DNA of 30,028 bases from a virus: IMG/VR virus record IMGVR_UViG_3300020463_000087, positions 1-30,028 of that record. One strand, written 5' to 3'. The position numbers and the translations under genes were made by a program. The notes beneath the pieces are model-generated. The model did not search any database, was not told the origin of the DNA, and saw nothing but the letters and a program-made list of their open reading frames with translations. This document shows, in pieces, positions 304 to 29,831 of this stretch. Each line of letters begins with the position of its first letter. The first letter of the stretch is position 1.

Positions 304-321
304 AAAAATAAATCCTAAACC

Positions 322-5338: not shown

Positions 5339-5871
5339 TGCCAGCAGGAATTTTACTACCAGTAGCACCAATAACAGGTTTACCTTGCTCAGGACATGGC
5401 ATATGCATTCCGAGTACGGTTCATTCAGTGCAGTCATGCAATTCACCACCTATTCCTTATACTATTAGGATAAAGGAGTGGACATGTTGGTGGCCACCGA
5501 CTCCATTAGTGCCTCTGGGTGCTCTTAGTCCCATGAAAGCAATGGTATTGACTAATGGGTTACCTACAATGACCTTTGGTGACAGATTCATACCTCATAT
5601 TTCTCCATGTACCAATATTATCATCTATATGTGCCCATGCGGTAAATCATTGTGCCCAGTTCCGACTCCAATCCCTTGTAGTCTACTTACCAGTGAAGAT
5701 ATGGGTGGTGCTGGTCATATTAGAATCTTATTTGCAACCTCATTGACTGTATATGTAACCAAGTTACCAATCGGACGTGTTCTAGACCCTCTGGGGGTAG
5801 GTACGTTGGCATATAGTTACCCATGTAACAGTGTGGTTGCATATGGGTCACCTAATGTGCTATCATCTTAG
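5338..5871 (+). CDS. PAAR-like spike-tip protein (gp5.4-like), cysteine-rich
   Basis: This 177-residue protein has the hallmarks of a PAAR-type tip, which caps the central spike of contractile tails with a metal-bound conical fold. Features seen are a Pro/Gly-rich start with GLPCSGHGICIPS (14-26), VLTNGLPTMTFGDRFIPH (70-87) matching the NGxP...GD core, and the terminal VAYGSPNVLSS resembling the repeated VxxGSPxV strand. Ten cysteines (17, 23, 34, 50, 91, 99, 101, 106, 114, 163) and His 20, 29, 87 and 127 offer more metal ligands than the usual three His plus one Cys, so the metal site may be elaborated. It is longer than the roughly 95-residue single-domain PAAR. The start overlaps the upstream stop (TAATG). 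Position next to the hub-slot gene and before gp25/gp6 supports the role. Confidence 0.75.
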   Translation: MPAGILLPVAPITGLPCSGHGICIPSTVHSVQSCNSPPIPYTIRIKEWTCWWPPTPLVPLGALSPMKAMVLTNGLPTMTFGDRFIPHISPCTNIIIYMCPCGKSLCPVPTPIPCSLLTSEDMGGAGHIRILFATSLTVYVTKLPIGRVLDPLGVGTLAYSYPCNSVVAYGSPNVLSS

Positions 5872-5890
5872 TAAATTCTATTTTTAACAA

Positions 5891-6043: not shown

Positions 6044-6050
6044 AACTCGT

Positions 6051-6077
6051 CTAAATAATCCTGTTAACGAATAAATA
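6051..6077 (+). promoter_or_regulatory. Candidate T4-like late promoter motifs before gp25
   Basis: The 41-bp gap between the basic ORF and gp25 contains CTAAATA (6051-6057) and AATAAATA (6070-6077), both close to the T4 late promoter TATAAATA. Because a T4 late promoter starts transcription a few bases downstream of the motif, the first would leave a leader of about 20 nt before the gp25 ATG. The second would leave almost none. AT-rich DNA produces such words by chance, so this rests on position more than on the match. Confidence 0.4.
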
Positions 6078-6084
6078 AGACATA

Positions 6085-6498
6085 ATGTCGTCGTACAGGT
6101 TCCGATCCGAAAAGTTCCTATCTCGTGGATTCAAAGATTTAGCGATTTCATTTGAAGCAAATCCTAATACTAATGATTTTGCAGCAGTGACTAACGAGAA
6201 TGCTATAAAGCAGTCTATTCGGAACCTTGTACTGACAAGTTTTGGTGAAAGACCTTTCCAACCTAATATTGGTTCAAAAGTAAGAGGACTATTGTTTGAA
6301 CCCTTTGATGTTTTTATGTCAGAGGACTTAAAGGATGAAATTACAAATACTATTGAAAGATTAGAACCAAGAGTTGAGTTAGTTGATATTGAAGTGACAC
6401 TTTCTGATGATGAACATAGTATCGACATCGCTATTGAATATGCGATCGTTGGACAACCACAAACACAAGTTGTGGAATTCCTCTTAGAGAGAACGTAA
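6085..6498 (+). CDS. 25: Baseplate wedge protein gp25
   Basis: This 137-residue protein is a clear GPW/gp25 family member, close to the T4 gp25 length (132). It has the N-terminal FLSRGFKDLAISFEANPN (13-30), the central AIKQSIRNLVLTSFGERPFQ (40-59) and the PNIGSKVRGLLFEPFD run (60-75), all conserved in this family, followed by ERLEPRVELVDIEV. In contractile tails gp25 forms the core of each baseplate wedge with gp6 and gp53 and is proposed to help nucleate sheath polymerisation. The ATG at 6085 is the natural start, since the conserved region begins within a few residues. gp6 follows after one base. Confidence 0.97.
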   Translation: MSSYRFRSEKFLSRGFKDLAISFEANPNTNDFAAVTNENAIKQSIRNLVLTSFGERPFQPNIGSKVRGLLFEPFDVFMSEDLKDEITNTIERLEPRVELVDIEVTLSDDEHSIDIAIEYAIVGQPQTQVVEFLLERT

Positions 6499-8609: not shown

Positions 8610-8795
8610 ATGTTTGCTGATAAAATAAACATTTCGGACAGAGTTGGTAATCAACTCCCCGAATACATTAGGGATGAAGACCAACAACTCGTCAACTTTC
8701 TCTTTGAGTACTACAAGTCCCAAGAGAAGACTGGTCGTGCTTACAATATACTTAATAATTTACTAGAATACTTAGATCTTGATGCTTATGATCCT
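8610..8795 (+). other. N-terminal anchor-like segment of the giant protein
   Basis: Residues 1-62 are predicted helical and include LPEYIRDEDQQLVNFLFEYY and YNILNNLLEYLDLDAYDP. Comparable 'peyir...Fl..YY' openings are familiar from very large structural proteins at this locus in T4-related phages, so this may be the part that docks to the gp6/gp25 wedge. The resemblance is from memory and the docking role is inference. Confidence 0.45.
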
Positions 8796-11700
8796 AAGAT
8801 TCTAACATCTTCGACTATCTTGATAAAAGATGTCGATACAACGATTGAGAAGATAGAAGTAGAAGCAATAGATGGATTCTTACCGAAAGATGGTTCGGTA
8901 ATGATTGATAATGAAGTAATATACTATCAAGAAACAGTTCGTGGTCCTGATGCTATATTAACACCAGGAATTTCATTAGAAGAATTTAATAAAAAGCGTC
9001 AAGCATTAGAAAGTCCTATAAAATTGTTCGATGGAGTTAAAACTACTTTCGATCTTAAATTCTTAGGCACCCCAGTCTCACCAGTCTCAGCAGAACACCT
9101 TGTGGTTACTGTTTTTGGGACAATGATGCAACCAGTAGTTGATTACTCAATCACTGGAAGTCAAATTGTCTTTACATCACCACCAAGAGCAAGAACTGGT
9201 AACGACGAAACAGAATTTACACAAATTCAATATTATATTGGTTTTGCTGACTCAGTAATCAAGAAATTAGAATATCCTGATGTTGCGACTCTTTCTGGTC
9301 AGGAATCAATGCCTATTACTTACAATAGTTTGGCATATTCCCCTATTGCAGAAATAGGTCTAATAATCAATCGTAATGGTGTTCTACAAAGACCATATGT
9401 CGATTATGTGTTGACTGATAACAACACAAGAATAAAATTCTTCGTTAATATTACTGCACAGGATGTTTACCACATAAGATCCATTGAGTACGTCTCTCCG
9501 TCCGTAGGAAGCGGTGCTGAGGCGGTTACTAGAATAGGTAGTAATGGTGAGATCGAATCTATCATCATCAAAAATGGAGGTACAGGATATGAACTTAACT
9601 TTGCTCCAAAAGTTTCTATATACAGTTCGACTGGCGTTGGTGGCAACTCGGCTGCAAGAAGTCTTGTCTCAGGAATCAAAAACGTCCAACTCATAAGTGG
9701 TGGTCAAGGATATACATCATATAACCCACCAATAGTTAATATTACACCACCTTCTGATCTAGTTAATGGATCACAGGCAAAAGCATCTATTACTGTTGAT
9801 GATGTTACTGGACAAGTCGATAGTATTGCAATTACAGACTCTGGATCAGGTTATGACTTTATTCCAGCAATTACTTTCTCAAATCCAAGAGGTGCTGCTG
9901 TTAGCGACCCTACCATTGATGGTGAAGGTCGTTTAATCATTGATTCAATTACAATTACTTCACAAGGTCTAGGATATAGTAATGCTCCAACAATTTACAT
10001 TGATGATGCACCATCTGACGGTATCAATGCAGAAGCAACTTGTACTGTGTCTCCTGACGGTCAAGTTGTTGCTGTTACTATTGTTAATAGAGGTAGAGGG
10101 TATCTAACTCCACCAAGAGCAAGAATTATACAACCAGTTGGTGCACAAGTATTAGATGTAACTGTTGCTAACGGTAGTGTCACTAATATCAACCTATTGA
10201 CTGGTGGTGCTGGATATACAGATGCACCTTCTGTTTATATTGTAGATGATCGTAAGGGACCACTAGGGGAAGCAATCGGTGGTACAGGAGCATTAGCAGC
10301 AGCGACTATATTCAACGGAGAGATCACTGATATCAATATCATTAATTTTGGTACAGGGTACTCCACAGAAACGCCCCCCAAAGTGTACATAGCCGAACCT
10401 TTATCCGCTGCATCGTCCTGTGACGTTGGGTTTGGTGAAATAACTGGTTGTAAGATTTTGAGTGCTGGTTCTTATTATGAACCATCTGCATTCCTTAATT
10501 GTGCTCGTGGTGTATCCGATGTAGTGCAATTTGATAACTTTTCTAACCAAGTATATGCAAAAGAGTCACAACTAGCACAAAGTGACCATACAAGTGGTGC
10601 TGTTGTACATAACCTAGACTCCCAAATCATTAAACAGGTATTTGACAAGTTCAGACGCCAATATATGCCTACTATCAATATTGACTACTCACAAGTCAAT
10701 CCGATACAGGTTATTAAGACTATTAGAGACTTCTACATCTCTAAGGGTACTAAGACTGCTGCACAATACCTATTCAAGATATTATTTGGTGAACAGGTTG
10801 ATGTTTACTACCCAAGAGAAGAATTAGTTACTCCATCTGCTGCTTCATGGATAGTTGACACTATTTTAAGAGCAGAGTTAATATCAGGTGACCCAGCAAA
10901 CCTTGCTGGTTCTCAACTTAACCAATTTGCTGATGTTGTTGATCCAAATATAGGAGATGCTAACGTATTGATTGAAAACGTTATTTCAATTATAGAAGGT
11001 ACCGACGTAATCTACGAATTAGCAATATCAGAAGAAACCTTAACAGGAACATTCAAGATTCCTTATAAAACAGTTCTCGCAGAACCATTAACAACTACTG
11101 AGAACATAATAACAGTTGACTCAACGATTGGGTGGCCAGAAAAGAACGGAACTATCATTATTGGTGATTCTGAGACTGTACAGTATAAGGAGAAGTCACT
11201 AAACCAGTTTATTGAGTGTACACGTTCTAAAAATGGTGTAGTAGAAGACTGGGATCCAGGAACTAAGATATTCTCCGACATATTTGTATATGTCAACCGT
11301 GGTTTAACAACAGAAGTTAAACTTCGTGTTCTAGGTATCGCAGAAGCGGGTACAACAATCCTAGAAGACAGCGGATCATATTATCTACCTGGTGATAAGT
11401 TAAACGTTGCTGCATTAGGTTCTACTGCTATTGATAAACGTTTAAACTCATGGTTATACAACGTTAAGAAGTTAATATCTGTTACTGAAATTACTCCTAC
11501 ACAAAACAACAACTCAGTAAGTCAAATTGCTAACGTTGTTTGTGCCAACCCACATGGTTTACTTGTAGAAGACAAGGTTACCATCTATGGTGCTAACCCT
11601 GCTGTATATAATGGTACGTTTGAAGTAACATCACGTCTTGATGAGTTTACCTTTACATATAACTTACCTGTTCCTACTGATATTATTCCACAGGGTAATA

Positions 11701-14700
11701 TTCTATTATCAGTTGACCTTAACAGAGGTAAGTCAACTGTAAACTCTATTAACGAAGTTATATCACTCTTTACTTCTAACATACAGAACTCATTCTTTAA
11801 TAATCAGTATGTTTACGTTGCTGCATCTGGATTACCCAACTATAAGGTTGGACCATTTACAGGATCTGCACTTATCCCAGGAAACCAGCGTAAGTTATTA
11901 AGATTCCCTAGATCAATTAGTACAGTATCTACAAGAACAACAGTTGGTGCTAATACTCCTATTGGATCTTGGGTTAACGGTGTTGCTGCATGGTCTTACA
12001 AGTCTGCTGACGTTGTAACGTTTGGACCTCTAACAAGTATTGGTATTGTTACCTCTGGTCAGGATTATGACGCTGGATCAAATCCAGCATTAGAAATAAC
12101 TGGTGGTGGCGGTACAGGTGCTGCTGCAACGGTAACTGTTAACGGTTCTTTATTCTCTATTAATGTATCTGCTGAGGGAAGTGGTTATACATCACAACCA
12201 TTGATCTCTATTGTTGGTGGTGGTGGATCTGGTGCTACTGCACAAGCGGTTGTTACTAATGGTAGAGTAACAAGAATACTTGTAGAGAACTCTGGTGTTG
12301 GATATACCTCGCAACCTACTATATCAATTACTGGTGGTGGAGGTGTAGGTGCTCTTGCAACTGCACAAGTTCGTGGTCCAATAGCAGCGGTTACACTATC
12401 ATCTGCTGGATCTGGATATACTTCAACTCCTACAATTAGACTAAACTCAGGTGAAGGTGCACTAGCACAACCTATTGTTATTAACGGTCGTATTGTTTCG
12501 ATCGCTATCATTAACTCTGGTTCTGGATATACAACTGCTCCTACTATCTTTATTAATGGTGATGGATTTGGTGCTCAGGCAACTGCTGTTATTGGAACAC
12601 TTGGCGAAGATAAGGGTAAGGTTATATCTGTATCAATCACAAACAGAGGTGTTGGATATACACAAGGTCAAACAACTGTACGTTTAGAAGCGGTTGGTCA
12701 ACTAGCAACATTCCAAGCAAACGTATTCCAGTGGAATAAAAACCTTGAATATGAACTATCAACAAAGTATGATGTAGCAAGAGGATATGTATTTACTGGA
12801 TTCAATAACCAGTATGGTGGTGAGTATGCACATATATCAGATCCAAAAGAATTAAGATATGTTGTTGGTGATAACGTTGTATTAGATCCAGCACTACAAG
12901 CATTTAGAGAGATAGGTGTCAATGAAACACACTCTCCTATTATTGGTTGGGCATTTGATGGTAACCCAATATACGGTCCATATGGATATATTGACCCAAC
13001 TGATCAGAACAGTGGACTAAGAAGAATGCGTTCGTCTTACAAACTTAAAGACGAAGTTGTATATGATATAGACACTAACCCTACACCTTCAAGGACAGAT
13101 GGTCCTACATTAGCAGACTATCCTGTTGGTACATTTGTTAATGACTACGAATATGCATTCCAACGTGGTGACTTAGATCCTTATAATGGTCGTTTCTGTA
13201 AGACACCTGATTTCCCTGCTGGAACTTATGCATACTTTATAACTATTGACGAATCAGATACAGGTCTACCAGTATTCCCTTATATTATAGGTCCTCAGTT
13301 CAACTCCGTTGTTGACACTTGGAACTTATCACTAAGCGCAGTTCAAGAGAACATACCTCTCGATGTTTCTCGTTTCAGAGATCCATATGCTAATGTTGAT
13401 ATTGATATTGACCGTCAACCTAACCAAGAGTCAGATTCTTTCGTTACTGAGAAGGAAGGAGATACAATTATCTTTGAAATAGAAGATATTGATGGAGATG
13501 GATTAATTACTCCTGTTGAGATTGCAAATCAACAAGCAATAACAGAAGAAGCAGCATTACAGATATATGATTACTTCCCATTAGTATCCACTGAGTCAAG
13601 AGTTGATATTGAAGTAGAAACAACTACAAAATTTGAATCTGCACAGATTGATGGGTTTGTTATTGAAAACCCAGGTGTATCTTATCAGGTTAATGATACA
13701 TTGTTCTTTGACAATACAGGAACAGAAGGATTTGGTGCATCTGCCCAAATCGAGTCAGTCGTAGGTAGAACTATATCAGCATACCAGAAGCAAGTTATAA
13801 ATGACGTACCTTATGGTAAAATTATTACTTCTTCTAACCATGAACTAGTTGCACAAGATGAAATCATCGTTAGTTCAAGAGTTATTCCAGAAAACACAAA
13901 TAAGAGATTCTACATGTCAGTTGTTACTGGTATTGAGACAATTTCTGTTGATCAGATTGGTGTTGGTTATAACGAAGCAATTCCTGCATCATATGAGATT
14001 ATTTCTAGTCAAGGACAAGATGTAGAACTAGATGTTATCCTCGATACTACAACTGGTAAGATTAATACTGTTAATATCATTAATTCTGGATTTGACTACT
14101 CTACAACTGCTGTACCACAGATTAGGGTATCACATCCACAACAATATAAGAAAACTTACTACTGGGTTAACCAGTATGCTGAAAGTGCTGCATCATTTGA
14201 AATATTTGATATTCAACCAGCAGATGATCGCACATTCTATGTCTGTGGTGAACTTACACAAACAAATGGCAATAGTTCTGCATTCTTAGCGAAGTTCTCT
14301 GATCTTGGTGTTGTAATTTGGGATAGAACACTTTTACCAAGTGCATCAATTAAGAAAGCAAGATTTAAGCGTATCTACTTAGATCAAACAACTGATGAGA
14401 ACCATATTCTATATGTACTTGGTGAAACTGAGTCACAATCAACTGCTGCATACAATCCTGACATTCTAATTACCAAATATACTTCTGGTCTTGATAATGC
14501 CAACAATCCAGAAGGTATTGTTCTATGGCAGAAAGAAATTGCTGGTGTATCAGGTTCAACAAGGTCTGACTATGCTGGTGACGTCTATCTTGATGATGAA
14601 CAAAGAATTTACATCTGTGGATGGACAGATACTAACTCAGTTGACCCAGATGACATCTGGATCATGCAACTTAACAGTTTGGGTGATGTTATTGAGAAAC

Positions 14701-26700: not shown

Positions 26701-29700
26701 ATGGTGAAGGTAACTTTAATGCATTCCCTGGTGTTGTTAGACAGCATTTAGTATTCTATCTCTTACGTATTGCAGAGGCAGCGAAACGTATATCTTATGA
26801 TCAAAATAATACATCAGAGTGGGGAACAAATAATACCTATAACGCATACTTCGATCCTACTCTTTCTGCTGCTATACTCAATCGTATTGAATATCAGCAA
26901 GAATCTACTGAGTTCTTTATGGATGCATCCTTCAACGTTGCTGAGTTTGCATTGACAAGAGGCACACCTCCAACAAATAATACTATTACATGGATTAACT
27001 CAACTCATGCTCAGAACTTAACTAACAGTTATCAGGAAGGTAACGACTGGAATACAGATCCTGATCTTGTTCTTAACACACCAACCATTGAAGTTGGATT
27101 TGAGAGAAGAGAAAATAGAGTTAAGATTACTCGTCCTAACTTCTACTCTCGTGGTGATGTATTAACTTACATCCCTGCATCATCAGATATTGAGCAAGGA
27201 TTACAAGGACAGAGTTGGTTCTATGTTCTTAATGCAACTCCACAATACTTTGAAATTTCAAGACAGATTAGACATGATGCAAGATACTCTCGTTTCCGTG
27301 TAGATACAACTACTGGTGGTCAACAGCAGTTCCAAGTCGATGTAAGATCTGGTATTGTAAGAGCAACTACAACTTACGGTACAAGAGATATTGATACACC
27401 TGTAAGTGCTGGATTTAATATCGCTGATGTTGTTGCTGGTATTACATCTGATACTCGTGCTGATGTTATAAGCACTAGAAACAACGAAGCAAAAGTTGTT
27501 AAGTTGTATAGTAAGTTCTTTATTGATGCTGCATCTGGTAGATTTACAAATGGAGAGACAGTATCAGTTCAAGGATCTTCTGCTAACAACGGTAAGATTG
27601 TTCAGACATCAGTATTAACAGGTGACAATAGTAACGAAGGTTATATCTACGTTGAAACTATTACTGGTGCGTTCAGTAATGATGATGTATTAGTTGGTAC
27701 TGATAGTGCTGTTACTGCTTCGGTGAATGGTACAGGTAAGACTCGTATGTTAGTTAACCTTGATAGAGGATCATTTGCTGTTAATGAAATGATATTCAAC
27801 AAGGCAAACTCCGCTGAGGCAGATATCGTTCTTTATGAAAACTCATCAGGTGCACTTACAAGTAACCTTGGTGGTAGAATCAGTATTGATATTGAATCAT
27901 TAGATCAAGACTTTGTTGACGGTGATATCATCTATGGTTCTGTAACAGATAAAATTATTGATATTGCGGACATCAGAGTATCAGGATTAGATCAGATTGA
28001 ACTTAATCAGTTTGTACATGGTACTAAGACTGTTCAGTATCAAGTTGCTAGTGTCACAAGAGACCAAGGATTTACAGGTGACTTTGCAGCAGGAGATTTA
28101 GTATATCTCTTACAAGGAACTATTCCAAAGGAACCAGGTTGGACTGCTGTTGTAACCGAATACAACTATGATCAAGAGAATAGTATTCATAACATCTATC
28201 TTGCTAACTTTACACCTTATGGTTCAGCAGCAGATGGTACAACAACTGATGATCCAGACCTAGCAGTTAACGGTGCTGTTGGTAAGTTTGAAAACCTTAA
28301 TAACTTCCCGATTATATTTGCTAACCTAAGTAGCGCAGCAACTACTAACTACACATCTTATGGTCGTGTTTCTGGTAAGGCAATCTCAGGTACAACTGGA
28401 AGACTTTGGTTAGAAGATGTAAATGGTGCATTCCCAAGTAATTTAAGTATCGTATCTGACTACGGATGGACTGCTGGTGTTACACAGAGTAAAGATCTCA
28501 TTGGTCGCTGTGATAGATATTTCAGAGGATTTGATGGGGTTGCAACAACATTCAAACTCACTGTCAACAACGGAGAAGCATACTTCCCCGACCCTGCTGG
28601 TCATCTCCTCACATTCGTTAATGGTGTACTACAACCCCCAGGAGCAAACTTTGCATACACTGCCTTCTCAGACCAGATCCAATTTACAGAACCTCCAACT
28701 ATCGGATCTGAGTTTATCGGATACTATGTCGGTAAGTTACGCCAGTTGGACGACATTAGTTTTGAATTTGATTCACTTCGTGCGTCCTTCAACCTTAAAT
28801 ACCTCGGAGGATTCTACTCTCTAACCTTGACAGAAGGTGTTTCATCTAACACTATTCTTCCAGAAAATAATATCATCTGTTCATTGAACGGTGTTATACA
28901 GGAACCTGGAATTGGTTATGAACTTGTTGGTTCAAGAATAATCTTTGCTGAAACTCCTCGTGCAGGATCTACATTCGTAGCATTCTCATACATTGGTTCT
29001 GATGCTGACGTTATCGCAGCGACTGTGGTACCACCTATTGAAGCGGGCGATGTCCTAGAAATTGAAGGAGAAGGTTCTCCTCGTGAAGTTGCGTTGATCG
29101 AATCTTCAAACTCCTTAATTACTTTCGAGTACACAGGAACTGTTAAAGGTCGTGACGCAGCAGCGTTAGCAACTGTTAAATCTGGTGAAATTACTAAGGC
29201 AATAATCACTACCCCTGGTGATGGTTATAGCGCACGTCCAAACGTTGATGTTATATCATCTACTGGATTTGATGGACGTATTCGTGCCTTGATGGGTATA
29301 TCAAGTATTGTTGTTAAGAACGCTGGTATTGGTTATACATTACCTGTCGTTGAAGTAGAGACAACTGTTGATGATGATTTTGTCGCACCTACTGGTGGTG
29401 GTGTTAACGGTGGATTTGACACATATCTCGGACAAGGTACAGACGCAGATGGTAACCCAATCATTATCGTCCCTGGATTTATTCAGATCATTTCACATCC
29501 AACAAACGTAACTGTTAACCAAGGTCAGACTGCATCATTCACAGTCGATGCATCATTCAGACTTCAATCTGATAGCAGTGTAGGAACTACACCTCTCAAC
29601 TATCAGTGGCAGCGTAAGCAGTATGGTGAGACATCATGGAGTAACATAACTGGATCAACATCAGCGGTTTACACATCCGCAGGTGCTGAACAGGCAGATG

Positions 29701-29831
29701 ATAGTGATGAATTTAGAGTCGCGATTACCGCTGCGGGTGCAACACCTGTTTACTCTAACTCTGTAATCCTAACAGTACAGACTGGTGCTACTGTACTAAG
29801 TAACTTCACACCTGATCAACTCTTTCAATAA
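8610..29831 (+). CDS. Giant multi-domain baseplate/adhesin structural protein in the gp7 slot
   Basis: One open frame of 7073 residues (roughly 0.75 MDa) follows gp6, where T4 encodes wedge protein gp7. Order seen, by residue: N-terminal segment with LPEYIRDEDQQLVNFLFEYY (1-60); NGVLQ elements (139-294); seven GxGY repeats (296-597); an SKGT/YYP segment (637-761); six GxGY repeats (1143-1360); YHYH-like domain (1437-1565); EF-hand loop (1626-1637); beta-propeller (1846-2262); LamG-like (2267-2468); two CBM5/12-like repeats (2673-2805); more GxGY (3104-3337); HPxGF segment (3548-3595); GETV repeats (3738-4051); about seven helical modules with inserted domains (4159-6067); GETV repeats (6299-6631); two NGVLQ elements (6640-6801); Ig-like domain (6956-7062). 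No signal peptide or membrane helix is seen. The first ATG, 8 bases past the gp6 stop, is used; no strong Shine-Dalgarno. Baseplate attachment is inferred from position and adhesion from domain types; a fibre or receptor-binding role is likely but unproven. Confidence 0.93.
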   Translation: MFADKINISDRVGNQLPEYIRDEDQQLVNFLFEYYKSQEKTGRAYNILNNLLEYLDLDAYDPKILTSSTILIKDVDTTIEKIEVEAIDGFLPKDGSVMIDNEVIYYQETVRGPDAILTPGISLEEFNKKRQALESPIKLFDGVKTTFDLKFLGTPVSPVSAEHLVVTVFGTMMQPVVDYSITGSQIVFTSPPRARTGNDETEFTQIQYYIGFADSVIKKLEYPDVATLSGQESMPITYNSLAYSPIAEIGLIINRNGVLQRPYVDYVLTDNNTRIKFFVNITAQDVYHIRSIEYVSPSVGSGAEAVTRIGSNGEIESIIIKNGGTGYELNFAPKVSIYSSTGVGGNSAARSLVSGIKNVQLISGGQGYTSYNPPIVNITPPSDLVNGSQAKASITVDDVTGQVDSIAITDSGSGYDFIPAITFSNPRGAAVSDPTIDGEGRLIIDSITITSQGLGYSNAPTIYIDDAPSDGINAEATCTVSPDGQVVAVTIVNRGRGYLTPPRARIIQPVGAQVLDVTVANGSVTNINLLTGGAGYTDAPSVYIVDDRKGPLGEAIGGTGALAAATIFNGEITDINIINFGTGYSTETPPKVYIAEPLSAASSCDVGFGEITGCKILSAGSYYEPSAFLNCARGVSDVVQFDNFSNQVYAKESQLAQSDHTSGAVVHNLDSQIIKQVFDKFRRQYMPTINIDYSQVNPIQVIKTIRDFYISKGTKTAAQYLFKILFGEQVDVYYPREELVTPSAASWIVDTILRAELISGDPANLAGSQLNQFADVVDPNIGDANVLIENVISIIEGTDVIYELAISEETLTGTFKIPYKTVLAEPLTTTENIITVDSTIGWPEKNGTIIIGDSETVQYKEKSLNQFIECTRSKNGVVEDWDPGTKIFSDIFVYVNRGLTTEVKLRVLGIAEAGTTILEDSGSYYLPGDKLNVAALGSTAIDKRLNSWLYNVKKLISVTEITPTQNNNSVSQIANVVCANPHGLLVEDKVTIYGANPAVYNGTFEVTSRLDEFTFTYNLPVPTDIIPQGNILLSVDLNRGKSTVNSINEVISLFTSNIQNSFFNNQYVYVAASGLPNYKVGPFTGSALIPGNQRKLLRFPRSISTVSTRTTVGANTPIGSWVNGVAAWSYKSADVVTFGPLTSIGIVTSGQDYDAGSNPALEITGGGGTGAAATVTVNGSLFSINVSAEGSGYTSQPLISIVGGGGSGATAQAVVTNGRVTRILVENSGVGYTSQPTISITGGGGVGALATAQVRGPIAAVTLSSAGSGYTSTPTIRLNSGEGALAQPIVINGRIVSIAIINSGSGYTTAPTIFINGDGFGAQATAVIGTLGEDKGKVISVSITNRGVGYTQGQTTVRLEAVGQLATFQANVFQWNKNLEYELSTKYDVARGYVFTGFNNQYGGEYAHISDPKELRYVVGDNVVLDPALQAFREIGVNETHSPIIGWAFDGNPIYGPYGYIDPTDQNSGLRRMRSSYKLKDEVVYDIDTNPTPSRTDGPTLADYPVGTFVNDYEYAFQRGDLDPYNGRFCKTPDFPAGTYAYFITIDESDTGLPVFPYIIGPQFNSVVDTWNLSLSAVQENIPLDVSRFRDPYANVDIDIDRQPNQESDSFVTEKEGDTIIFEIEDIDGDGLITPVEIANQQAITEEAALQIYDYFPLVSTESRVDIEVETTTKFESAQIDGFVIENPGVSYQVNDTLFFDNTGTEGFGASAQIESVVGRTISAYQKQVINDVPYGKIITSSNHELVAQDEIIVSSRVIPENTNKRFYMSVVTGIETISVDQIGVGYNEAIPASYEIISSQGQDVELDVILDTTTGKINTVNIINSGFDYSTTAVPQIRVSHPQQYKKTYYWVNQYAESAASFEIFDIQPADDRTFYVCGELTQTNGNSSAFLAKFSDLGVVIWDRTLLPSASIKKARFKRIYLDQTTDENHILYVLGETESQSTAAYNPDILITKYTSGLDNANNPEGIVLWQKEIAGVSGSTRSDYAGDVYLDDEQRIYICGWTDTNSVDPDDIWIMQLNSLGDVIEKRKFASTNKGEQLHQIHYIGNDKIIFCGIDLDNNDLMFGEMVYDGSNIEMRYVKKLAVSGGQVQRPQFVIDSYNDLYFTCDMWNGTKHYGVALFKIAMSQVEATGSNPTWIFSKIVAPSITFESVNHAGISLDEFGNINLVTHVKYEDNNQQAVINYIKYDGTTLYKSNVISGAWNSGTSTTDYGLGFTAHNHTVDNSGDVIIPANIQQATQTAVYRFDASGDLYFDATKQKKAIPTIVNTAQLVYDSTVQKFGTGSLKFQQYGSLTWANFDNNDDWTVSMWVKMDTTHDSNNPIMEMVTVVDDAGSTVKLNIIGAASDANFGKIRMVISPNGGSATTVDSVGSTYFTTMDVGAWHHIAFVKEEPTLGSYDYSVYFDGVRTNTATVVSDIAMDDLTIGCATSGQAITNSFLGHIDDIAIEAKAVYTGSSLTVPTERYRITTTNTNLDLIKFDREHNKRGDFQTSTDGIVFTENTNLNINTLNNPVITVWNQGASGLQILDYSDVTSTLSPGTYTFTSGITTFGSKTSTIPTPLGKRLLITPNVVAKYYIRDAGYSKIDNVLEFTFNQAIKYTKGTIIQQYNSQGVTQAFGTIVEVPTGTLNNPGLGNKYKIGKTYGNFNNSDRFRNDTGEENTIDNLVFEVVRPQAAWVSGKAYTTGDQVYNAGKIYAATNTGTSGATAPTHLIGIVTDGAVTWNFISTSGTLQVDLSQYPWPTPSEPEWEENRSYSANDYVYYGRNKYQAVGDGIAGPTAPVHTSSTASDGTITWTYVSTYDPLSSYARFRPFAVGDYKVQIMEVFSDSTFIPGDVVSLGNSITTAPNTDNPKIADINGIGSVSKIRFTVNLDKDILRTAEARTDLIYATATTPHNLSAADILYVEGFSTAEFNGSFFVQELFSSRDFTYRLRTTATAEPAFVNNGIANVKISSKHPTLMLVRNHSYVFDMSDVSNFGYFLSFSQDNQFKLEYSFNVIERDGTPGVSSSTETPTVKFAIGGEVTNITYYFDPSRLGANSPVGTNSFIDVIKTPFDGTFRISEVLSDTEFRFPLLYEPEFTNANIGEDDQDQPNSKYSTTSVKAIGPINTIKLISPGGFYQRLPVVSDIASDRKIEKIRIVNGGTEYAVGVYTQVPILGDGEGGLCQITVEVNEEIGSGTITAVALTDPGKGYTEASIDVDGIEGILGSTLSGSGAELNVVIPAEGTGAAVFLTGTQIGKIKTLKNNEFGYGYSHDYTLRPEIAFPINLQLFNTSILSQITITNPGSGYTSPPSVIIQGGGGTGAEAEAIVKNNRLSEILIKNPGAGYSSQPSVTLKSEFTYVVNLDLNYLQFNFPHGITTGAAVQFIAEDIGSTVGILPKPSSVGLTSLSSTQTYYAITGDANSLESDQLRFALTAVDAQSGNFITFLTQGDGRQVLLTEVFGGQATAVVETSRFLEGEEVFQGESFELASAFGVVSENEGWQIQPKILKIINPTGDFVVGGKVQGVISRASGIIDNLNVAKGVLNIDALTRTPGRFIDDVGKPSEIVQKIQDSYFYQNFSYVIKSKIPINRWKQQILENNHPVGFSMFGQLELTGGKDVSGRKVVAGFTKQVNINEYTNINQITSFGAAQPIYSTFNNSEVLFRKKRLTNSEEILTSIVKKIDNIASQFDGSKKSFPISVEGENLVVDENQLLITLNGIIQAPGQSYQVVGNNLVFAEPPKPDSKVVYRNIEVDLYPITRFNLNTIGGIFPSIGDTVIGFVSNATARVVATGATSIDVVDIQNGPFALNERIDVSRTGFSALIGSIDDSVTKLYLSSIGGEFTQSALAGDRVTGATSGATATIQTVDAVNNTIDVTDMSNGYFDRGETVSFFTAGYGATLTTVDSVNYKTIFEFGETVTSLDGNTAVIEENNLDLDGVIDDKLVLSKTSGTSEYETGTYSIFLNDIIYSASSNIAAKITSIAPYRDPIVSINLERPIGSTTGSWTSFEEGDKFQGPGGTATGEIVRIDFDANPVILYYLKSSEAEISSGETIQRYFPDASGNRLLDSLTETVVGTNVLGDIVDTLIINSGSSFNGIIFERLISLSNQNIILDNISETTITPTTLLDPSNRINADFLDFEEVRSTEVEYENLTGGSIAANDILRSITFEYGNQVTNAKNRWQDAGRMIGLNKDQIVDFANAQIAVEHPGFYYPGDNITDAWSRYADAYRLIIKNIDYIANKSYALMVAEYPSLSIPSGPKCIRDTKLMIEALAFDVYSGGTIYTRKLLQKYFSTDGLTFLYVNNEAAATNYAFGQAVSLMKQALSNMLTGSETVDGVTYVKYNERTAGGSSGTGITADPSPGNPYGTAGTNTTNYSATNCSDVQSALQTLYDNVSVVLTAGSLADLLDSVTPTQYTAHEIKCRRDIGYLVDALGNDISSDGNFQTVKFIKTYFDSLGVPISNGFVGEVKEYLSAFKHVAELCKRAINNLLYVQVNTRTSETGYMLHDPTTYAAPYLGASGSALTQFTPTAVTYTPANGQLVMTIGNHSLTTSDTVKIRPYSLNFTCTMDAGASFHPYPRTGDPAFNAALNISATTQTSITVDVGASPLVQYTPTGATYDPATGVMVLTIGSHSLDIGDPVTLADNSITFTCTQDSNASNHSYPRTTDPASGASLPIVAKDTTTISINVGASAPTDQYAHTFVSASSNAVSSGGGFTHTFVSAEPNAVYNGGGTEAAYYDPNYYSGDNESLGNCADVQAGIHTLISHVSTAIGAGSLSAVPTGADLNDGGYVENENLRVFKIAYKDLSGNGFFLPGETVRGATSNANFVCKGTNAGLKWLFTNAVTGTFQDREIVSNTKLTVNGSAVLTKLQKKAGTQSIRFDSSSYLAHALSDRQKFQTADFTVEMWIRPSSVTGTQFLWDTRTTSATLTGSPVLYIENTQIKYWYGGSDQITGAHNLTANVWSHVAVTRTTNITKLFVNGTQVGGDYADTNNYLERPFNIAADWQGNNGYVGHMDNFIIHTESKYSATFTPGFTYPTNTAKVTFGLDCESSIIISTEDCFGTYTGQTNSTATSKKVNYDNKTVIIEDIDLGRDSYREAADILELNLDWMAETAVGLMAEKYPDFIIPGDGVGSTTGTAKCVRDTKEYIAKAIIADIRYGGNYNSTISGRGYLTKSGGLNYVGNELLQSVYAWDELANVMNYVITTTSSDLVNYPAAGTKYTEILRIPNNFSSPASAAVQAEISSLSDQIINILAPTGDRFRDGGDAIWKNRDYIAEEVALKIQNDYKANINGIDFDFLVMPGYGQPYCERDIKVYILPAVITDLLTGGNSATQYAIDQYINTSSQIIHVEDQLSAMLDAFEWTKKLAHHAVNQTLLTFGTTASSLGIDSQYHDDYYVAQFTQKTAYRDTTVTIDTQAPDQSRTAPSHNIWMDTADLLEANKHVIAWEAVHTMNDMSYFLDFTVPGGRMNCADDLVDVIEAMVHDIRLGGNSKTWDAAALYLNTEDDTLIHVEGEDKASKWAMTWAMEIAILTMRNGFGRENLYIYDPEDNSGGGGTAIGGGNSDESFNEVETSTYEQNAVLDRFIDAANIIERNTRFIAEEAVRLMLVQYPSLHNTDWVSGVGPFSPAAGSMTYDAATGVITYDHGSAHGLTTGRKIYVRQESLVFTCTKDGNNSEHAYPRTTDPWYNKGIAVTSTGTNTFTFNVGAAGANDQYTHTFVRAEYEAITVAGSHDCVHDITDVIDAMQWNLRHGGNNKVFHAAEMYTDGTALAHVSGYVTEVTWVMNKARDLAIQVMRQETVNTAGSTHGYTQKLFSDLDFFPYNVANYTITADASSPLCADVASALTTFTSIVTDTLATPASISDGTISKSLPNIWPVKYANDMANRDTSITFDTSTSDWNNTCAQAASGIETLFNLVMDTISVAASSSPSPNHLTTVTRTTPYNSNTAYQLYTCYNVVSASDTLFDLMIDTLGGGTSPHTGGNFSDRTIARYLTFNKHAISAKAFAETQSQYPTTTAELSFAETIMDAIIYDLNTRGNAGMMQYANSWFDGEGNFNAFPGVVRQHLVFYLLRIAEAAKRISYDQNNTSEWGTNNTYNAYFDPTLSAAILNRIEYQQESTEFFMDASFNVAEFALTRGTPPTNNTITWINSTHAQNLTNSYQEGNDWNTDPDLVLNTPTIEVGFERRENRVKITRPNFYSRGDVLTYIPASSDIEQGLQGQSWFYVLNATPQYFEISRQIRHDARYSRFRVDTTTGGQQQFQVDVRSGIVRATTTYGTRDIDTPVSAGFNIADVVAGITSDTRADVISTRNNEAKVVKLYSKFFIDAASGRFTNGETVSVQGSSANNGKIVQTSVLTGDNSNEGYIYVETITGAFSNDDVLVGTDSAVTASVNGTGKTRMLVNLDRGSFAVNEMIFNKANSAEADIVLYENSSGALTSNLGGRISIDIESLDQDFVDGDIIYGSVTDKIIDIADIRVSGLDQIELNQFVHGTKTVQYQVASVTRDQGFTGDFAAGDLVYLLQGTIPKEPGWTAVVTEYNYDQENSIHNIYLANFTPYGSAADGTTTDDPDLAVNGAVGKFENLNNFPIIFANLSSAATTNYTSYGRVSGKAISGTTGRLWLEDVNGAFPSNLSIVSDYGWTAGVTQSKDLIGRCDRYFRGFDGVATTFKLTVNNGEAYFPDPAGHLLTFVNGVLQPPGANFAYTAFSDQIQFTEPPTIGSEFIGYYVGKLRQLDDISFEFDSLRASFNLKYLGGFYSLTLTEGVSSNTILPENNIICSLNGVIQEPGIGYELVGSRIIFAETPRAGSTFVAFSYIGSDADVIAATVVPPIEAGDVLEIEGEGSPREVALIESSNSLITFEYTGTVKGRDAAALATVKSGEITKAIITTPGDGYSARPNVDVISSTGFDGRIRALMGISSIVVKNAGIGYTLPVVEVETTVDDDFVAPTGGGVNGGFDTYLGQGTDADGNPIIIVPGFIQIISHPTNVTVNQGQTASFTVDASFRLQSDSSVGTTPLNYQWQRKQYGETSWSNITGSTSAVYTSAGAEQADDSDEFRVAITAAGATPVYSNSVILTVQTGATVLSNFTPDQLFQ
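9024..9491 (+). repeat. NGVLQ structural elements, copies 1 and 2 (N-terminal pair)
   Basis: Copy 1 (9024-9251) reads LFDGVKTTFDLKF, then HLVVTVFGTMMQPVVDY, GSQIVFTSPP and YYIGFAD. Copy 2 (about 9345-9491) reads LIINRNGVLQRPYVDYVL followed by RIKFF. Both share the plan 'FDG..tF.L / L.v.lNGvlQ.P..dY / gs.I.F...P...s.f..yY.g' with copies near 19617, 28527 and 28770. Similar elements are common in phage tail proteins. Confidence 0.65.
9495..10400 (+). repeat. GxGY repeat cluster A (seven units)
   Basis: Seven units of about 40 residues each follow the plan 'G.I..i.I.n.GxGYt..P.v.I': GGTGYELNFAP, GGQGYTSYNPP, SGSGYDFIPA, QGLGYSNAP, RGRGYLTPP, GGAGYTDAP and FGTGYSTETPP. A degenerate eighth (SAGSYYEPS) follows. 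The units alternate a short beta hairpin with the GxGY turn, suggesting a stacked beta arrangement. Units differ at most codons, so the expansion is old. Confidence 0.8.
10518..10890 (+). other. Conserved baseplate-like segment with SKGT and YYP motifs
   Basis: Residues 637-761 read as helical, with FDKFRRQYMPTINIDY, then TIRDFYISKGTKTAAQYLFK and ILFGEQVDVYYPREELV followed by ASWIVDT. This 'IRDFY.sKGT...FLF.ilFgE.v.vYYP' pattern recurs, as far as I recall, in large structural proteins next to gp6 in T4-related phages, and it is the part of this protein that most looks like a conserved baseplate component rather than an adhesin. Function is inferred from position. Confidence 0.5.
11097..11240 (+). 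other. 'STxGWP...IGDSETVQYKE' beta element
   Basis: Residues 830-877 contain IITVDSTIGWPEKNGTIIIG, then ETVQYKEKSLNQFIECTRSK. It parallels the N-terminal IDGFLPKDGSVMIDNEVIYY near nt 8865, so the same small beta element is used twice. Such elements are common in phage structural proteins; no specific role can be given. Confidence 0.5.
12036..12689 (+). repeat. GxGY repeat cluster B (six units)
   Basis: Six tight units have period about 33-38 residues: GQDYDAGSNP, GSGYTSQP, GVGYTSQP, GSGYTSTP, GSGYTTAP and GVGYTQGQ. The first three are each followed by a GGGG-type turn (GGGGTGAAAT, GGGGSGATAQ, GGGGVGALAT). This is the most regular cluster, and the DNA itself is visibly repetitive (ggtggtggtggatctggtgc and near copies), implying more recent duplication than in cluster A. 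Confidence 0.85.
12918..13304 (+). other. Degenerate YHYH-like domain
   Basis: Residues 1437-1565 contain SPIIGWAFDGNPIYGPYGYI, then LDPYNGRFCKTPDFPAGTYA, followed by YFIT and PVFPYIIGPQF. Order and spacing match the YHYH domain (IGvafnGvpiyGP... D..nG....P.GtYhYH...pyvIG), but the namesake YHYH tetrad is YAYF here, so both histidines are lost. Binding activity, if any, is unknown. Confidence 0.65.
13485..13520 (+). other. Canonical EF-hand calcium-binding loop
   Basis: The twelve residues DIDGDGLITPVE (1626-1637) satisfy every position of an EF-hand loop: acidic at 1, 3 and 5, Gly at 6, Ile at 8 and Glu at 12. Flanking sequences (TIIFEIE before, IANQQAITEEAALQIYDYF after) could supply the helices, more convincingly on the C-terminal side. 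A dockerin-like or single-loop calcium site is possible; no second loop is seen nearby. Confidence 0.65.
13629..14135 (+). repeat. GxGY-like repeat cluster C (degenerate)
   Basis: About three weak units: IDGFVIENPGVSYQVNDTLF, ISVDQIGVGYNEAIPASY and NTVNIINSGFDYSTTAVPQI. They keep the 'I..I.n.G..Y' core of clusters A and B but have lost the strict GxGY. They lie just before the propeller domain. Confidence 0.6.
14145..15395 (+). other. Probable six-bladed beta-propeller
   Basis: Residues 1846-2262 show about six blade-like units, each a strand of type 'lYv.G.t', then 'D..i.k....G...W.k': FYVCGELTQTNGNSSAFLAK, LYVLGETES with ILITKYTS, IYICGWTDTNSVDPDDIWIM, IIFCGIDLDNNDLMFGEM, LYFTCDMWNGTKHYGVALFK and INLVTHVKYEDNNQQAVINY. 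This resembles the SBBP/delta-60 type of beta-propeller found in secreted proteins. In a virion it would be a candidate ligand-binding platform. Blade count is by eye. Confidence 0.65.
15408..16013 (+). other. LamG-like (concanavalin-type) lectin domain 1
   Basis: Residues 2267-2468 have the order expected of a LamG_3 jelly-roll: an early FGTGSLKFQQYGSLTW, then DDWTVSMWVKMD, GAWHHIAFVKEE, YSVYFDGVRTNT and FLGHIDDIAIEAKAVYTG. These 'fTvs.WvK / W.HvA.v / .ly.dG / G.iDdi.i' blocks are the usual signature. The family often binds glycans or proteins; the ligand here is unknown. Confidence 0.8.
16626..17022 (+). repeat. Tandem CBM5/12-like carbohydrate-binding repeats
   Basis: Two units of about 55 residues: AAWVSGKAYTTGDQVYNAGK followed by IYAATNTGTSG and a WNFIS end, and PEWEENRSYSANDYVYYGRN followed by KYQAVGDGIAGPTAP and TWTYVS. 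Both match the 'W....aY..Gd.V...g..Y.a...g..g..aP......W' plan of CBM5/12-type chitin/cellulose-binding modules. The aromatic residues that would stack on sugars are kept. Confidence 0.65.
17478..17700 (+). other. Cupredoxin-like 'YxFDxSDxSN' beta domain (degenerate)
   Basis: Residues 2957-3031 run LVRNHSYVFDMSDVSNFGYF with later GTPGVSS and VTNITYYFDPS. This follows the marine-phage plan 'rg.tY.FD.Sd.SN.gHpl.fs...GtpG...YYYC..H', but the final Cys/His metal ligands are absent, so any metal site is lost. It is preceded by a PHNL...EFNGSFFV...FTYRL element (about 17285-17430) that also occurs near 11550-11670. Confidence 0.5.
17919..18620 (+). repeat. GxGY repeat cluster D
   Basis: Four to five units: an opening IKLISPGGFYQRLP, then NGGTEYAVGV, PGKGYTEASI, PGSGYTSPPSVIIQGGGGTG and PGAGYSSQPSVTLK. 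The last two are nearly identical in plan to cluster B units, suggesting the clusters share a source. Confidence 0.75.
19251..19394 (+). other. 'QDSYFYQNFSYVI...HPVGF' segment
   Basis: Residues 3548-3595 include KIQDSYFYQNFSYVIKSKIP, then NNHPVGFSMFGQLEL. This conserved-looking aromatic block recurs, to my memory, in large marine phage structural proteins. Its role is unknown. Confidence 0.45.
19617..19817 (+). repeat. NGVLQ structural element, copy 3
   Basis: It reads FDGSKKSFPISVEGENLVVD, then LLITLNGIIQAPGQSYQVVG, NNLVFAEPP and VVYRNIEV. The plan matches the copies at 9024, 28527 and 28770. Confidence 0.7.
19821..20760 (+). repeat. GDTV/GETV repeat region 1
   Basis: Residues 3738-4051 carry about five short beta units built on 'G(D/E)(T/R/K)(V/F).G..SgAtA.i...': GDTVIGFVSNATARVVATGA, GDRVTGATSGATATIQTV, GETVSFFTAGYGATLTTV, GETVTSLDGNTAVIEE and GDKFQGPGGTATGEIVRI. 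They alternate with 'NG.F..GE' turns. A second region of the same type lies at 27504-28500. Confidence 0.6.
21684..21764 (+). repeat. NCxDVQ short helical repeat, copy 1
   Basis: It reads NCSDVQSALQTLYDNVSVVL, then TAGS. The same 25-residue helix plan (C.dv.sa..tL...v.d.l..g) recurs at 22803, 26061, 26256 and 26409. Confidence 0.65.
22122..22740 (+). repeat. FTCT/YPRTTDP beta repeats, copies 1 and 2
   Basis: Copy 1 (22122-22373): TYTPANGQLVMTIGNHSL, SLNFTCTMDAGASFHPYPRT, then TSITVDVGAS. Copy 2 (22374 onward): TYDPATGVMVLTIGSHSL, SITFTCTQDSNASNHSYPRT, then TTISINVGAS. Copy 2 is followed by a tail present twice in tandem (AHTFVSASSNAV and THTFVSAEPNAV), while copy 1 has no tail. A third copy lies at 25437. 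A small beta domain is likely; function unknown. Confidence 0.8.
22803..22880 (+). repeat. NCxDVQ short helical repeat, copy 2
   Basis: It reads NCADVQAGIHTLISHVSTAI, then GAGS, closely parallel to the copy at 21684. Confidence 0.65.
23130..23700 (+). other. LamG-like lectin domain 2
   Basis: Residues 4841-5031 contain AGTQSIRFDSSSYLAH, FQTADFTVEMWIRPSS, NVWSHVAVTRTTNITKLFVN followed by GTQVG, and GYVGHMDNFIIHTESKYS. This is the same jelly-roll order as the domain at 15408, but with low residue identity, so the two are not a recent duplication. Confidence 0.8.
25437..25735 (+). repeat. FTCT/YPRTTDP beta repeat, copy 3, inserted in a helical module
   Basis: It reads MTYDAATGVITYDHG, then SLVFTCTKDGNNSEHAYPRT, TFTFNVGAAG and THTFVRAEYEAI. 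It lies between the first helices (EEAVRLMLVQYPSL) and the second half (DCVHDITDVIDAM) of one helical module, so it interrupts that module in frame. Confidence 0.75.
26061..26478 (+). repeat. NCxDVQ-type short helical repeats, copies 3-5
   Basis: Three copies within about 420 bases: LCADVASALTTFTSIVTDTL (26061), TCAQAASGIETLFNLVMDTI (26256) and TCYNVVSASDTLFDLMIDTL (26409). They keep the Cys, the 'TL/TF' and the 'V.DT(L/I)' end of the copies at 21684 and 22803. Confidence 0.65.
27504..28500 (+). repeat. GETV-type repeat region 2
   Basis: Residues 6299-6631 carry beta units related to the region at 19821: GRFTNGETVSVQGSSANNGK, GAFSNDDVLVGTDSAVTASV, GSFAVNEMIFNKANSAEADI, QDFVDGDIIYGSVTDKI and FAAGDLVYLLQG. 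The shared plan is 'g.F..gd.v.g..S...a.v'. Confidence 0.55.
28527..29012 (+). repeat. NGVLQ structural elements, copies 4 and 5 (C-terminal pair)
   Basis: Copy 4: GFDGVATTFKLTVNNGEAYF, HLLTFVNGVLQPPGANFAY, DQIQFTEPPTIGSEFIGYYV. Copy 5: SLRASFNLKYLGG, IICSLNGVIQEPGIGYELVG, SRIIFAETPRAGSTFVAFSY. They are adjacent and share a plan with the N-terminal pair, so the giant protein carries the same elements at both ends. Confidence 0.75.
29181..29390 (+). repeat. GxGY repeat cluster E (two units)
   Basis: ITKAIITTPGDGYSARPNVD, then SSIVVKNAGIGYTLPVVEV, close to the C-terminus of the giant protein. The units match clusters A, B and D. Confidence 0.75.
29475..29795 (+). other. C-terminal Ig-like domain
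   Basis: Residues 6956-7062 follow the I-set Ig-like plan: ISHPTNVTVNQGQTASFTVD, LNYQWQRKQYGETSWSNITG, TSAVYTSAGAEQADDSDEFR, then VAITAAGATPVYSNSVILTV. The Gln-Trp-Gln core, the 'GSTSAVYT' strand and the final S-x-x-x-L-T-V are typical. The disulphide cysteines are absent, as in most phage Ig-like domains, which often decorate virions and bind surfaces weakly. Confidence 0.8.

Follow-up and report, generated by a model that had tools for sequence, protein, structure and literature searches.

Introduction

Gp7 of phage T4 is a baseplate wedge protein of 1032 aa whose gene follows that of gp6 (PDB 5hx2 and 5iv5; relative 9f4a). Its main extra part, roughly 650-700 residues, lies before the conserved core. 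A minimal counterpart is gp17 of phage XM1, a 242-residue gp7 orthologue. According to the available part of its description, the N-terminal helix-turn-helix of this protein forms a core bundle with the gp6-type dimer, and residues 80-106 and 201-242 bind the tail spikes (PMC10457771). Besides the core, XM1 gp17 thus has a loop and a C-terminus holding the receptor-binding spikes, which are separate proteins. Cyanophages encode far larger homologues, collected in phrog_701 and known as 'baseplate wedge initiator' (S-WAM1, S-SZBM1, P-TIM40, P-RSM6); the records of P-SSM2, S-RIM50, S-WAM1 and Bellamy already name gp7 or 'baseplate wedge initiator'.

Two further systems proved relevant to the gene described here. 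The phycobiliproteins (phycocyanin, phycoerythrin, allophycocyanin; PF00502) have a globin-like fold with a characteristic Cys and Asp, and an Arg-86-type residue is a secondary feature of these proteins. CpeT of cyanophages resembles T-type phycobiliprotein lyases (PF06206). The accessible sections of PMC3037559 count phage cpeT among the auxiliary metabolic genes, with a part in pigment assembly of the host, and call its role unresolved.

We analysed the whole 30,028-base IMG/VR record IMGVR_UViG_3300020463_000087, a fragment of a phage genome that we refer to as the window. Coordinates written with two dots refer to its plus strand.

Results

A 7073-codon gene in the place of gp7

A single frame is open from 8610 to 29831 (8610..29831; 7073 codons), with an ATG start and, on translation, a sole stop at its end. 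It starts directly after the genes for the baseplate wedge subunit gp25 (6085..6498; Pfam GPW_gp25 PF04965, E 7.9e-16) and the baseplate wedge protein gp6 (6500..8602; Pfam PF21379, Gp6-like_1st, E 9.7e-16; phrog_219, E 2.3e-197). This is the position of T4 gp7, the order in T4 likewise being gp6-gp7. The ORF list, the translation and the Pfam and PHROG matches upstream confirmed the reading of a first-pass annotation of the window, which had noticed one 7073-codon frame right after gp25 and gp6. Its statement that the product is nearly seven times larger than T4 gp7 is also right, given the 1032 aa of the T4 record. Further upstream, a PAAR-family ORF occupies the T4 gp5.4 position (5338..5871; phrog_281 PAAR motif, E 4.1e-23), preceded by a 1363-aa ORF (1247-5338) that matches phrog_22792 over nearly its full length and by a 2OG-Fe(II) oxygenase-like ORF (322-1002; phrog_81, E 1.6e-15), which thus lies beside baseplate genes. 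Compared by position only, the place of the 1363-aa ORF is taken by long hypothetical ORFs in S-WAM1, P-RSM6 and S-SZBM1.

The same gene order is found in other phages. Judged by annotation, a gp6-type gene lies immediately upstream of the gene in the gp7 place in 13 of 13 phage records, and a gp25-type gene lies upstream of the gp6-type gene in all but T4 (12 of 13; phiM7 has one gene between). Eight overlapping pieces of the giant gp7 each matched phrog_701, the best stretches spanning profile positions 2-6132 of 6136. Because all eight pieces match and isolates have uninterrupted homologues, a chance open frame is excluded.

The gp7 core is split by long additions

By sequence homology, the 7073-aa protein is a relative of the T4 gp7 baseplate wedge protein and would share its function as a wedge scaffold. 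This conclusion rests on profiles of conserved blocks built from 13 relatives. The profile of block B (A1; residues 626-830, 10485..11099) matched T4 gp7 731-758 and ranked gp7 top among 177,635 PDB sequences (E 4.7e-6). For block C (A2; residues 3490-3640, 19077..19529) gp7 was again the top PDB match, at residues 865-894 (E 0.019). Searched against 11 T4 baseplate and tail proteins, both blocks ranked gp7 first (E 2.9e-10 and 1.3e-5, respectively). Pairwise comparison aligned T4 gp7 733-758 and 866-897 with residues 707-732 and 3564-3595 (E 7e-4 and 8e-4), and blocks B and C are colinear, retaining the order of T4 gp7.

Block A (residues 1-62, 8610..8795) was delimited in a 13-member alignment, in which Q15, P17, Y34 and Y35 are invariant. 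Its profile also placed gp7 first among the 11 T4 proteins, with a non-significant E of 0.43. By analogy with XM1 gp17 residues 1-48, block A is probably the core-bundle helix-turn-helix. The two segments that had looked conserved in the first-pass annotation, 8610-8795 (residues 1-62) and 10518-10890 (residues 637-760), are both conserved in the family alignments; a third, residues 3490-3640 (19077-19529), had been overlooked.

The distances between the blocks differ widely from those in a small relative, the 896-residue protein of Melnitz-3. In the alignment, blocks A and B are separated by 643 residues in giant gp7 versus 126 in Melnitz-3, blocks B and C by 2,693 versus 290, and 3,478 residues follow block C versus 223. 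Thus, whereas T4 gp7 carries its main extra part before the core, the giant family has additions between and after the core blocks. In addition, residues 3327-3481 (18588-19052) match T4 gp10 52-220 (pairwise E 3.4e-4), perhaps as a shared repeat domain.

Giant forms of gp7 are widespread among marine T4-like cyanophages

We compared 14 proteins in the post-gp6 place, ranging from 896 to 8,573 aa. The small members are those of Melnitz-3 (896 aa), phiM7 (1006), HTVC008M (1016) and T4 (1032); S-RSM4 (3515), Bellamy (4067), P-SSM2 (5195) and S-RIM50 (6405) are of middle size; and S-SZBM1 (6619), S-WAM1 (6737), ACG-2014d (6817), the window (7073), P-TIM40 (7351) and P-RSM6 (8573; L011 7908-33629) are large, the last being the largest of the 14. 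The nine cyanophage relatives span 3,515-8,573 residues. The protein is therefore oversized with respect to T4 gp7, as first annotated, but unexceptional within its own family. Residues 1-760 matched 432 of 50,697 phage records, and 290 of these cover at least 80% of the query. Together with the size ladder, this number indicates that a gp7 of giant size is a common trait of marine T4-like cyanophages, the window holding one such protein.

The isolates S-WAM1, S-SZBM1, P-TIM40 and P-RSM6 each have a single uninterrupted homologue with 58-73% identity along at least the first 3,800 residues (S-SZBM1: 70.6% over residues 1-3809). Homology to giant gp7 extends over most of the length of these proteins; they differ in the last part, which varies in size and has been rearranged. 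Other environmental contigs, 90-99% identical, share the same regions. Two relatives have been detected in virions, according to the available parts of the respective reports. In CsCl-purified S-SZBM1 particles, the 'baseplate wedge initiator' (724.20 kDa, 6619 aa) was represented by 71 peptides covering 13.5% (PMC9146016), and ORF122 of S-CREM2 by 91 unique peptides at 27.2% coverage (PMC10665884). ORF122 is a 1937-aa gene that matches giant gp7 residues 659-747.

Domains between and after the core blocks

The first-pass annotation had named propeller, lectin and Ig-like folds among the added domains. The lectin fold is borne out by a Laminin_G_3/concanavalin-like lectin domain above the Pfam cut-off (PF13385, E 4.9e-17; residues 4871-5002, 23220..23615), and a single-sequence phmmer search of residues 3631-7073 against the PDB found an S-layer protein at this domain (E 2.2e-4). 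A second sandwich appeared in a template-free AlphaFold2 model of residues 1838-2470 (27 sequences; mean pLDDT 71.9, pTM 0.57), which is almost all beta and whose best Foldseek matches are propeller-plus-sandwich glycosidases. This medium-confidence model also supports the propeller, at residues ~1860-2200 (14187..15209), which matched Sec12 with a TM of 0.63-0.64 of the target; the predicted lectin-like sandwich (residues ~2273-2450, 15426..15959) matched AbnA domain 4 at 0.64 of the target. The Ig-like fold was found at the C-terminus only (residues ~6964-7062, 29499..29795), through PHROG matches to head and tail decoration proteins: phrog_613 (head protein, E 1.6e-9), phrog_3995 (tail protein, 3.4e-6) and phrog_4069 (Hoc-like, 6.3e-4). 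The label rests on Hoc, which we take to be Ig-like.

A strong YHYH domain lies inside this baseplate protein (PF14240, E 8.9e-29; residues 1400-1547, 12807..13250), and a possible carbohydrate-binding module 5/12 stayed below its curated cut-off (PF02839, E 1.4e-4; residues 2676-2706, 16635..16727). The phmmer search of residues 1-3630 against the PDB gave one match only, which we judged to be chance. A second type of repeat (phrog_1276 and phrog_5342, tail fibre) with a Tyr-Pro-Arg-Thr motif occupies residues ~4499-4720 and 5600-5710 (22104-22769 and 25407-25739). It sits between, and partly inside, the helical units described below and occurs in many copies in P-RSM6 and P-SSM2.

Phycobiliprotein-fold units in the last part of giant gp7

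The list of extra domains in the first-pass annotation, right in part, had missed a set of repeated helical units in residues 4149-6064. The first lead came from weak matches of the Pfam phycobilisome model to two pieces of giant gp7 (E 0.0013 and 0.0072) and from phycoerythrin hits in the phmmer search of residues 3631-7073 (E 0.017-0.029). With a unit HMM, five units scored 90-130 bits and four weak or partial ones 37, 32, 16 and 10 bits. Unit 1 (residues 4181-4310, 21150..21539; 115 bits) carries the motif Cys-Ile-Arg-Asp and is followed by the weak unit 2 (residues 4334-4472, 21609..22025; 37 bits; Cys-Arg-Arg-Asp). Beyond the Laminin_G_3 domain come unit 3 (residues 5062-5190, 23793..24179; 118 bits; Cys-Val-Arg-Asp), which was also modelled and matched by fold and reaches residues ~5057-5235 with the last helix of the model, unit 4 (residues 5224-5358, 24279..24683; 114 bits; Cys-Glu-Arg-Asp) and unit 5 (residues 5390-5520, 24777..25169; 130 bits; Cys-Ala-Asp-Asp). 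A half unit comprising the first helices only (residues 5545-5612, 25242..25445; 32 bits) precedes unit 6 (residues 5651-5782, 25560..25955; 90 bits; Cys-Val-His-Asp), and a degenerate unit in which the motif Cys is absent (residues 5947-6064, 26448..26801; 16 bits) ends the series. Motif Cys and Asp are both present in six of eight window stretches. In phycobiliprotein numbering they are of the Cys-84 and Asp-87 type.

Profile A4, for which the window and seven phages supplied 34 units, found 158 PDB sequences at E<=10; the best 60 were all phycobiliproteins, counting a 'bacterial fluorescent protein' among them (top E 1.1e-8). When the motif was replaced by X in 16 units, phycobiliproteins still made up 55 of 58 PDB matches (best E 1.4e-4), with a designed repeat protein second (E 1.1e-3). 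A further profile was made from orthologues of the three-unit stretch (residues 5057-5532; 47 sequences). It had 82 PDB matches at E<=1, and phycobiliproteins, taken to include smURFP and a near-infrared fluorescent protein, accounted for 55 of the best 60 (best 0.0029); the other five were armadillo-type or importin-type repeat proteins. The Pfam model PF00502, which was built independently of our profiles, matched three of three unit-bearing records tried and none of 13 unit-lacking records at E<=0.1, and exceeded its cut-off in S-RSM4 and S-WAM1. Searched singly, 15 of the 34 units matched it at E<=1, the best at 3.1e-4 and 21.2 bits, under the cut-off of 22.2.

A template-free AlphaFold2 model of residues 5057-5532 (476 residues) reached a mean pLDDT of 79.6 and a pTM of 0.66. 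Foldseek placed phycobiliproteins in 48 of the best 50 of its 392 matches; the best E-value was 0.044, and none was at or below 0.001. With VIA, the best 50 matches were all phycobiliproteins (Z 15.4-17.1), a list that in effect probes the first modelled unit only (model residues 1-179). Twenty of the 50 superpose at 2.1-3.1 A, the other 30 at 5.3-6.2 A; examples are 7ssf_F (Z 17.0, 2.5 A over 146 residues) and 7lj0_B (2.1 A over 137 of 145). We conclude that, as judged by sequence profile and predicted model, the units have the phycobiliprotein (globin-like) fold.

The seed pattern of the unit HMM contained Cys and Asp, so that their invariance in A4 is partly built in. For this reason we ran a search with these columns masked on 137 environmental loci and the window, which yielded 826 rows, 651 of them full-length, and 54 non-redundant units (<60% identity). 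The Cys was kept in 44/51, the Asp in 47/53 and both in 44/54 units, which ranks them among the best-kept columns; two Gly were present in 50/54 and 46/54 units and a Tyr in 46/54. The Arg-86-type residue before the Asp was found in only 18/53 units, its place being taken mostly by Asp (14) or His (11). Among the 47 orthologues of the modelled stretch, whose identities go as low as 24%, Cys and Asp are invariant in the first two units. In the third, neither is on the list of invariant or 90% conserved positions, and an intervening Asp is conserved in at least 90%. The units thus resemble phycobiliproteins in their predicted fold, in Cys and Asp, in a Gly-Gly after the following helix and in a repeat period of ~160 residues. 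They differ in standing in tandem inside a viral tail protein and in the frequent loss of the Arg beside the Asp.

Distribution of the units among phages

At E<=1e-3 the three-unit stretch matched 364 of 50,697 phage records, 285 named after Synechococcus, 60 'Cyanophage', 18 after Prochlorococcus and one 'Marine virus'. Prochlorococcus phages with units include P-HM1, P-TIM40, P-RSM6 and P-SSM7. The units lie in two or three separate large ORFs in S-RSM4, S-WAM2, Syn1, P-HM1 and S-SCSM2R and are confined to one ORF in S-CAM1 and S-SCSM1. This distribution bears on the suggestion in the first-pass annotation that the protein keeps baseplate segments and merges wedge and host-recognition roles that are separate genes in T4. 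The profiles uphold the first part; the merging is not demonstrated. In S-RSM4, S-WAM2, Syn1 and S-CAM1 the same extra units occur in another large ORF, annotated 'tail protein' in the S-WAM2 and S-CAM1 records, and relatives also list separate tail-fibre genes (e.g. S-SCSM2R, and the records of P-HM1 and S-SCSM1).

Units and cpeT occur in the same phages

At 30,028 bases, the window is too short to reveal a cpeT gene. We searched 27 hand-picked whole phage records, namely 13 from the gp7 comparison and 14 added after a first association had emerged and meant to cover cyanophages with and without units. The profile search found units in 14 of the 27. Seven of these 14 had supplied rows of A4, so their matches are by construction; the other seven are independent of A4, as are two further phages, S-SCSM2R and S-CREM1. 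PF06206 (CpeT) was detected in 12 of the 14 unit-bearing records and in none of the 13 that lack units. With CpeT of S-RIM50 as query, the remaining two were recovered, P-SSM7 (E 5.8e-25) and ACG-2014d (3.7e-7), again with no match in the 13 unit-lacking records, so that cpeT is present in 14/14 versus 0/13. Nine of the 13 are cyanophages (P-SSM2, Bellamy, S-B05, S-SSM6a, Sf-FS3, S-N03, S-CREM2, S-CAM9 and P-TIM68); for cyanophages alone, 14/14 versus 0/9 has a naive probability of 1.2e-6, with kinship ignored. On a gp23 tree the trait needs three changes and gives two supported independent contrasts (p 0.5, non-significant); with units and cpeT going together in each of the 27 rows, this tree counts contrasts and is no test of agreement. 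S-SCSM1 carries both units and cpeT, and the seven other sampled members of its supported clade carry neither.

Two CpeT queries matched 249 and 71 records collection-wide, partly overlapping and all named as cyanobacterial viruses apart from one 'Marine'. S-SCSM2R and S-CREM1, picked through such matches, both bear units. The CpcT-annotated gene of S-SCSM2R (L238 4965-5366) was missed by the S-RIM50 CpeT query and recovered by that of S-WAM2. Right after it come a tRNA, a small ORF and a long tail fibre gene; S-SCSM2R has its units elsewhere, in two other large ORFs. PF06206 was also present in 6 of 18 environmental contigs holding giant gp7 relatives, including the 92-kb contig L023 (91% identity over the query); as most of the 18 are fragments, the absence of a match in the other 12 carries no weight.

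We surveyed the cpeT neighbourhood in 12 stretches, with ORFs called in the analysis. In S-WAM2, S-RSM4, S-CAM1 and Syn1, a large unit-holding ORF lies one or two small ORFs away from cpeT. In S-WAM1, S-SZBM1, P-RSM6 and P-TIM40 cpeT directly precedes a gp5-type hub gene, and in S-RIM50 it stands one ORF ahead of that gene. Neither arrangement was found in the stretches of P-HM1, Syn30 and S-SCSM1. Pfam Gp5_OB was detected in two of the five gp5-type genes; the other three share 53-61% identity among themselves, ~38% with one Gp5_OB gene and 27-28% with the other, and by these sequence identities all five are homologous. The gp5 region, a frequent site of cpeT, is a hot spot of extra genes, the latter as stated in the accessible text of PMC3037559, and the cpeT neighbourhood is therefore supportive at best.

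Bilin reductase (PF05996) was tried as a tracker of the units and rejected, being present in two of seven unit-bearing and one of six unit-lacking records. For four marine phages of cluster C, namely S-CREM2, S-H34, S-N03 and S-B68, the available part of PMC10665884 reports cpcV, an S-type lyase gene. In S-CREM2 and S-N03 (L161 and L159) we found no units with either the unit profile or PF00502; a diverged partner domain may be present in their large tail genes.

Discussion

The homology and splitting of the core, the phycobiliprotein fold of the units, the conservation of their Cys and Asp and the concordance with cpeT in 27 genomes together form an account that we hold with high confidence. 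Three short core segments, two of them proven by T4 homology and one probable, would anchor giant gp7 in the wedge beside gp6. The thousands of residues between and after these segments, with propeller, lectin-like sandwiches, YHYH and Ig-like domains, most likely form covalently attached arms, of adhesin or fibre-like type, that point outward, and the last part of these arms would be a string of phycobiliprotein-fold domains that keep Cys and partner Asp. Such arms may touch the host. The additions seem to be at places that roughly match the spike-holding regions of XM1 gp17, from which we infer that receptor-facing material was added where outward loops already existed; the giant gp7 domains belong to the same polypeptide, unlike the separate spikes of XM1.

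Could the giant frame be an artefact, or the units a chance likeness? Processing of the 7073 codons into several proteins, or fusion during assembly, would fit the low peptide coverage of the S-SZBM1 homologue (13.5%, in the available part of PMC9146016) and the origin of the window as an environmental contig. The same uninterrupted frame in isolate records and the similar environmental contigs exclude a fusion artefact for the family, though not proteolysis, and we regard this explanation on the whole as improbable. Convergence on a common helical bundle is more improbable still. The weak Foldseek E-values, the designed repeat protein second in the masked-profile list and the caution given for VIA, that a Z of ~14 is attainable for helical models with no clear match, speak for it, but the sequence profile by itself gives phycobiliproteins throughout its best 60 matches at E-values down to the 1e-8 range and survives masking of the motif, PF00502 matches unit-bearing and not unit-lacking records, and the superposition on 7ssf_F is close. 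We give least credence to mimicry, by which the units would imitate antenna proteins of the host and thereby let the tail dock on parts of its phycobilisome or evade recognition by it. The names of the unit-matching records (363/364 cyanobacterial viruses) agree with it; however, antenna proteins are inside the host and the tail acts outside, and four Prochlorococcus phages also carry units, their host being described as without intact phycobilisomes in the accessible text of PMC3037559.

What the units do in the tail is a closer question. Phage CpeT may act on them in folding, bilin loading or other maturation, a reading that we favour tentatively, at somewhat short of even chances. The competing reading, that the units are apo structural or adhesive spacers, with Cys and Asp retained because folding or a disulfide needs them and cpeT found alongside merely because both traits are bound to clades and were inherited together, is a serious contender. 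It draws on the two supported contrasts of the gp23 tree, on the loss of the Arg in most units and on the resemblance of the other added domains to plain decoration. T-type lyases such as CpcT are moreover reported to serve the Cys-153 site and not the Cys-84-type site (PMC10452541, available part), and S-CREM2 and S-N03 have a lyase but no detectable units. The coincidence of units and cpeT in 27/27 records, the occurrence of both in S-SCSM1 inside a clade otherwise lacking them, and the place of Cys and Asp among the best-kept columns argue against apo spacers. Because of the lyase-site mismatch, the cpcV phages without units and the bilin reductases that do not track the units, we consider apo units nearly as likely as an action of CpeT on them. 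A step beyond CpeT action as such would be that CpeT matures the units, both in giant gp7 and in other tail proteins, and that they carry covalent bilins in virions; this we think rather unlikely.

Giant gp7 itself was already known. What does appear to be new is that it contains phycobiliprotein-fold units and that these are concordant with cpeT. The records of S-WAM1, S-SZBM1, P-TIM40 and P-RSM6 contain no annotation of such units that we could find. Neither the units in cyanophage tails nor the concordance is reported among the open-access literature matches listed, to the extent of the text available, and the same holds for both in the accessible portions of PMC2984593, PMC9146016, PMC3037559, PMC10452541, PMC10457771 and PMC10665884.

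The split core reveals the places at which a conserved wedge protein can accommodate additions of thousands of residues, and the units suggest a possible job for cpeT, the puzzling pigment-attachment gene of related viruses. If the units did carry bilins, the virion tail would be a biliprotein, its bilins either drawn from the host or synthesised within it, and phage cpeT, perhaps together with bilin reductases, would serve structure instead of metabolism.
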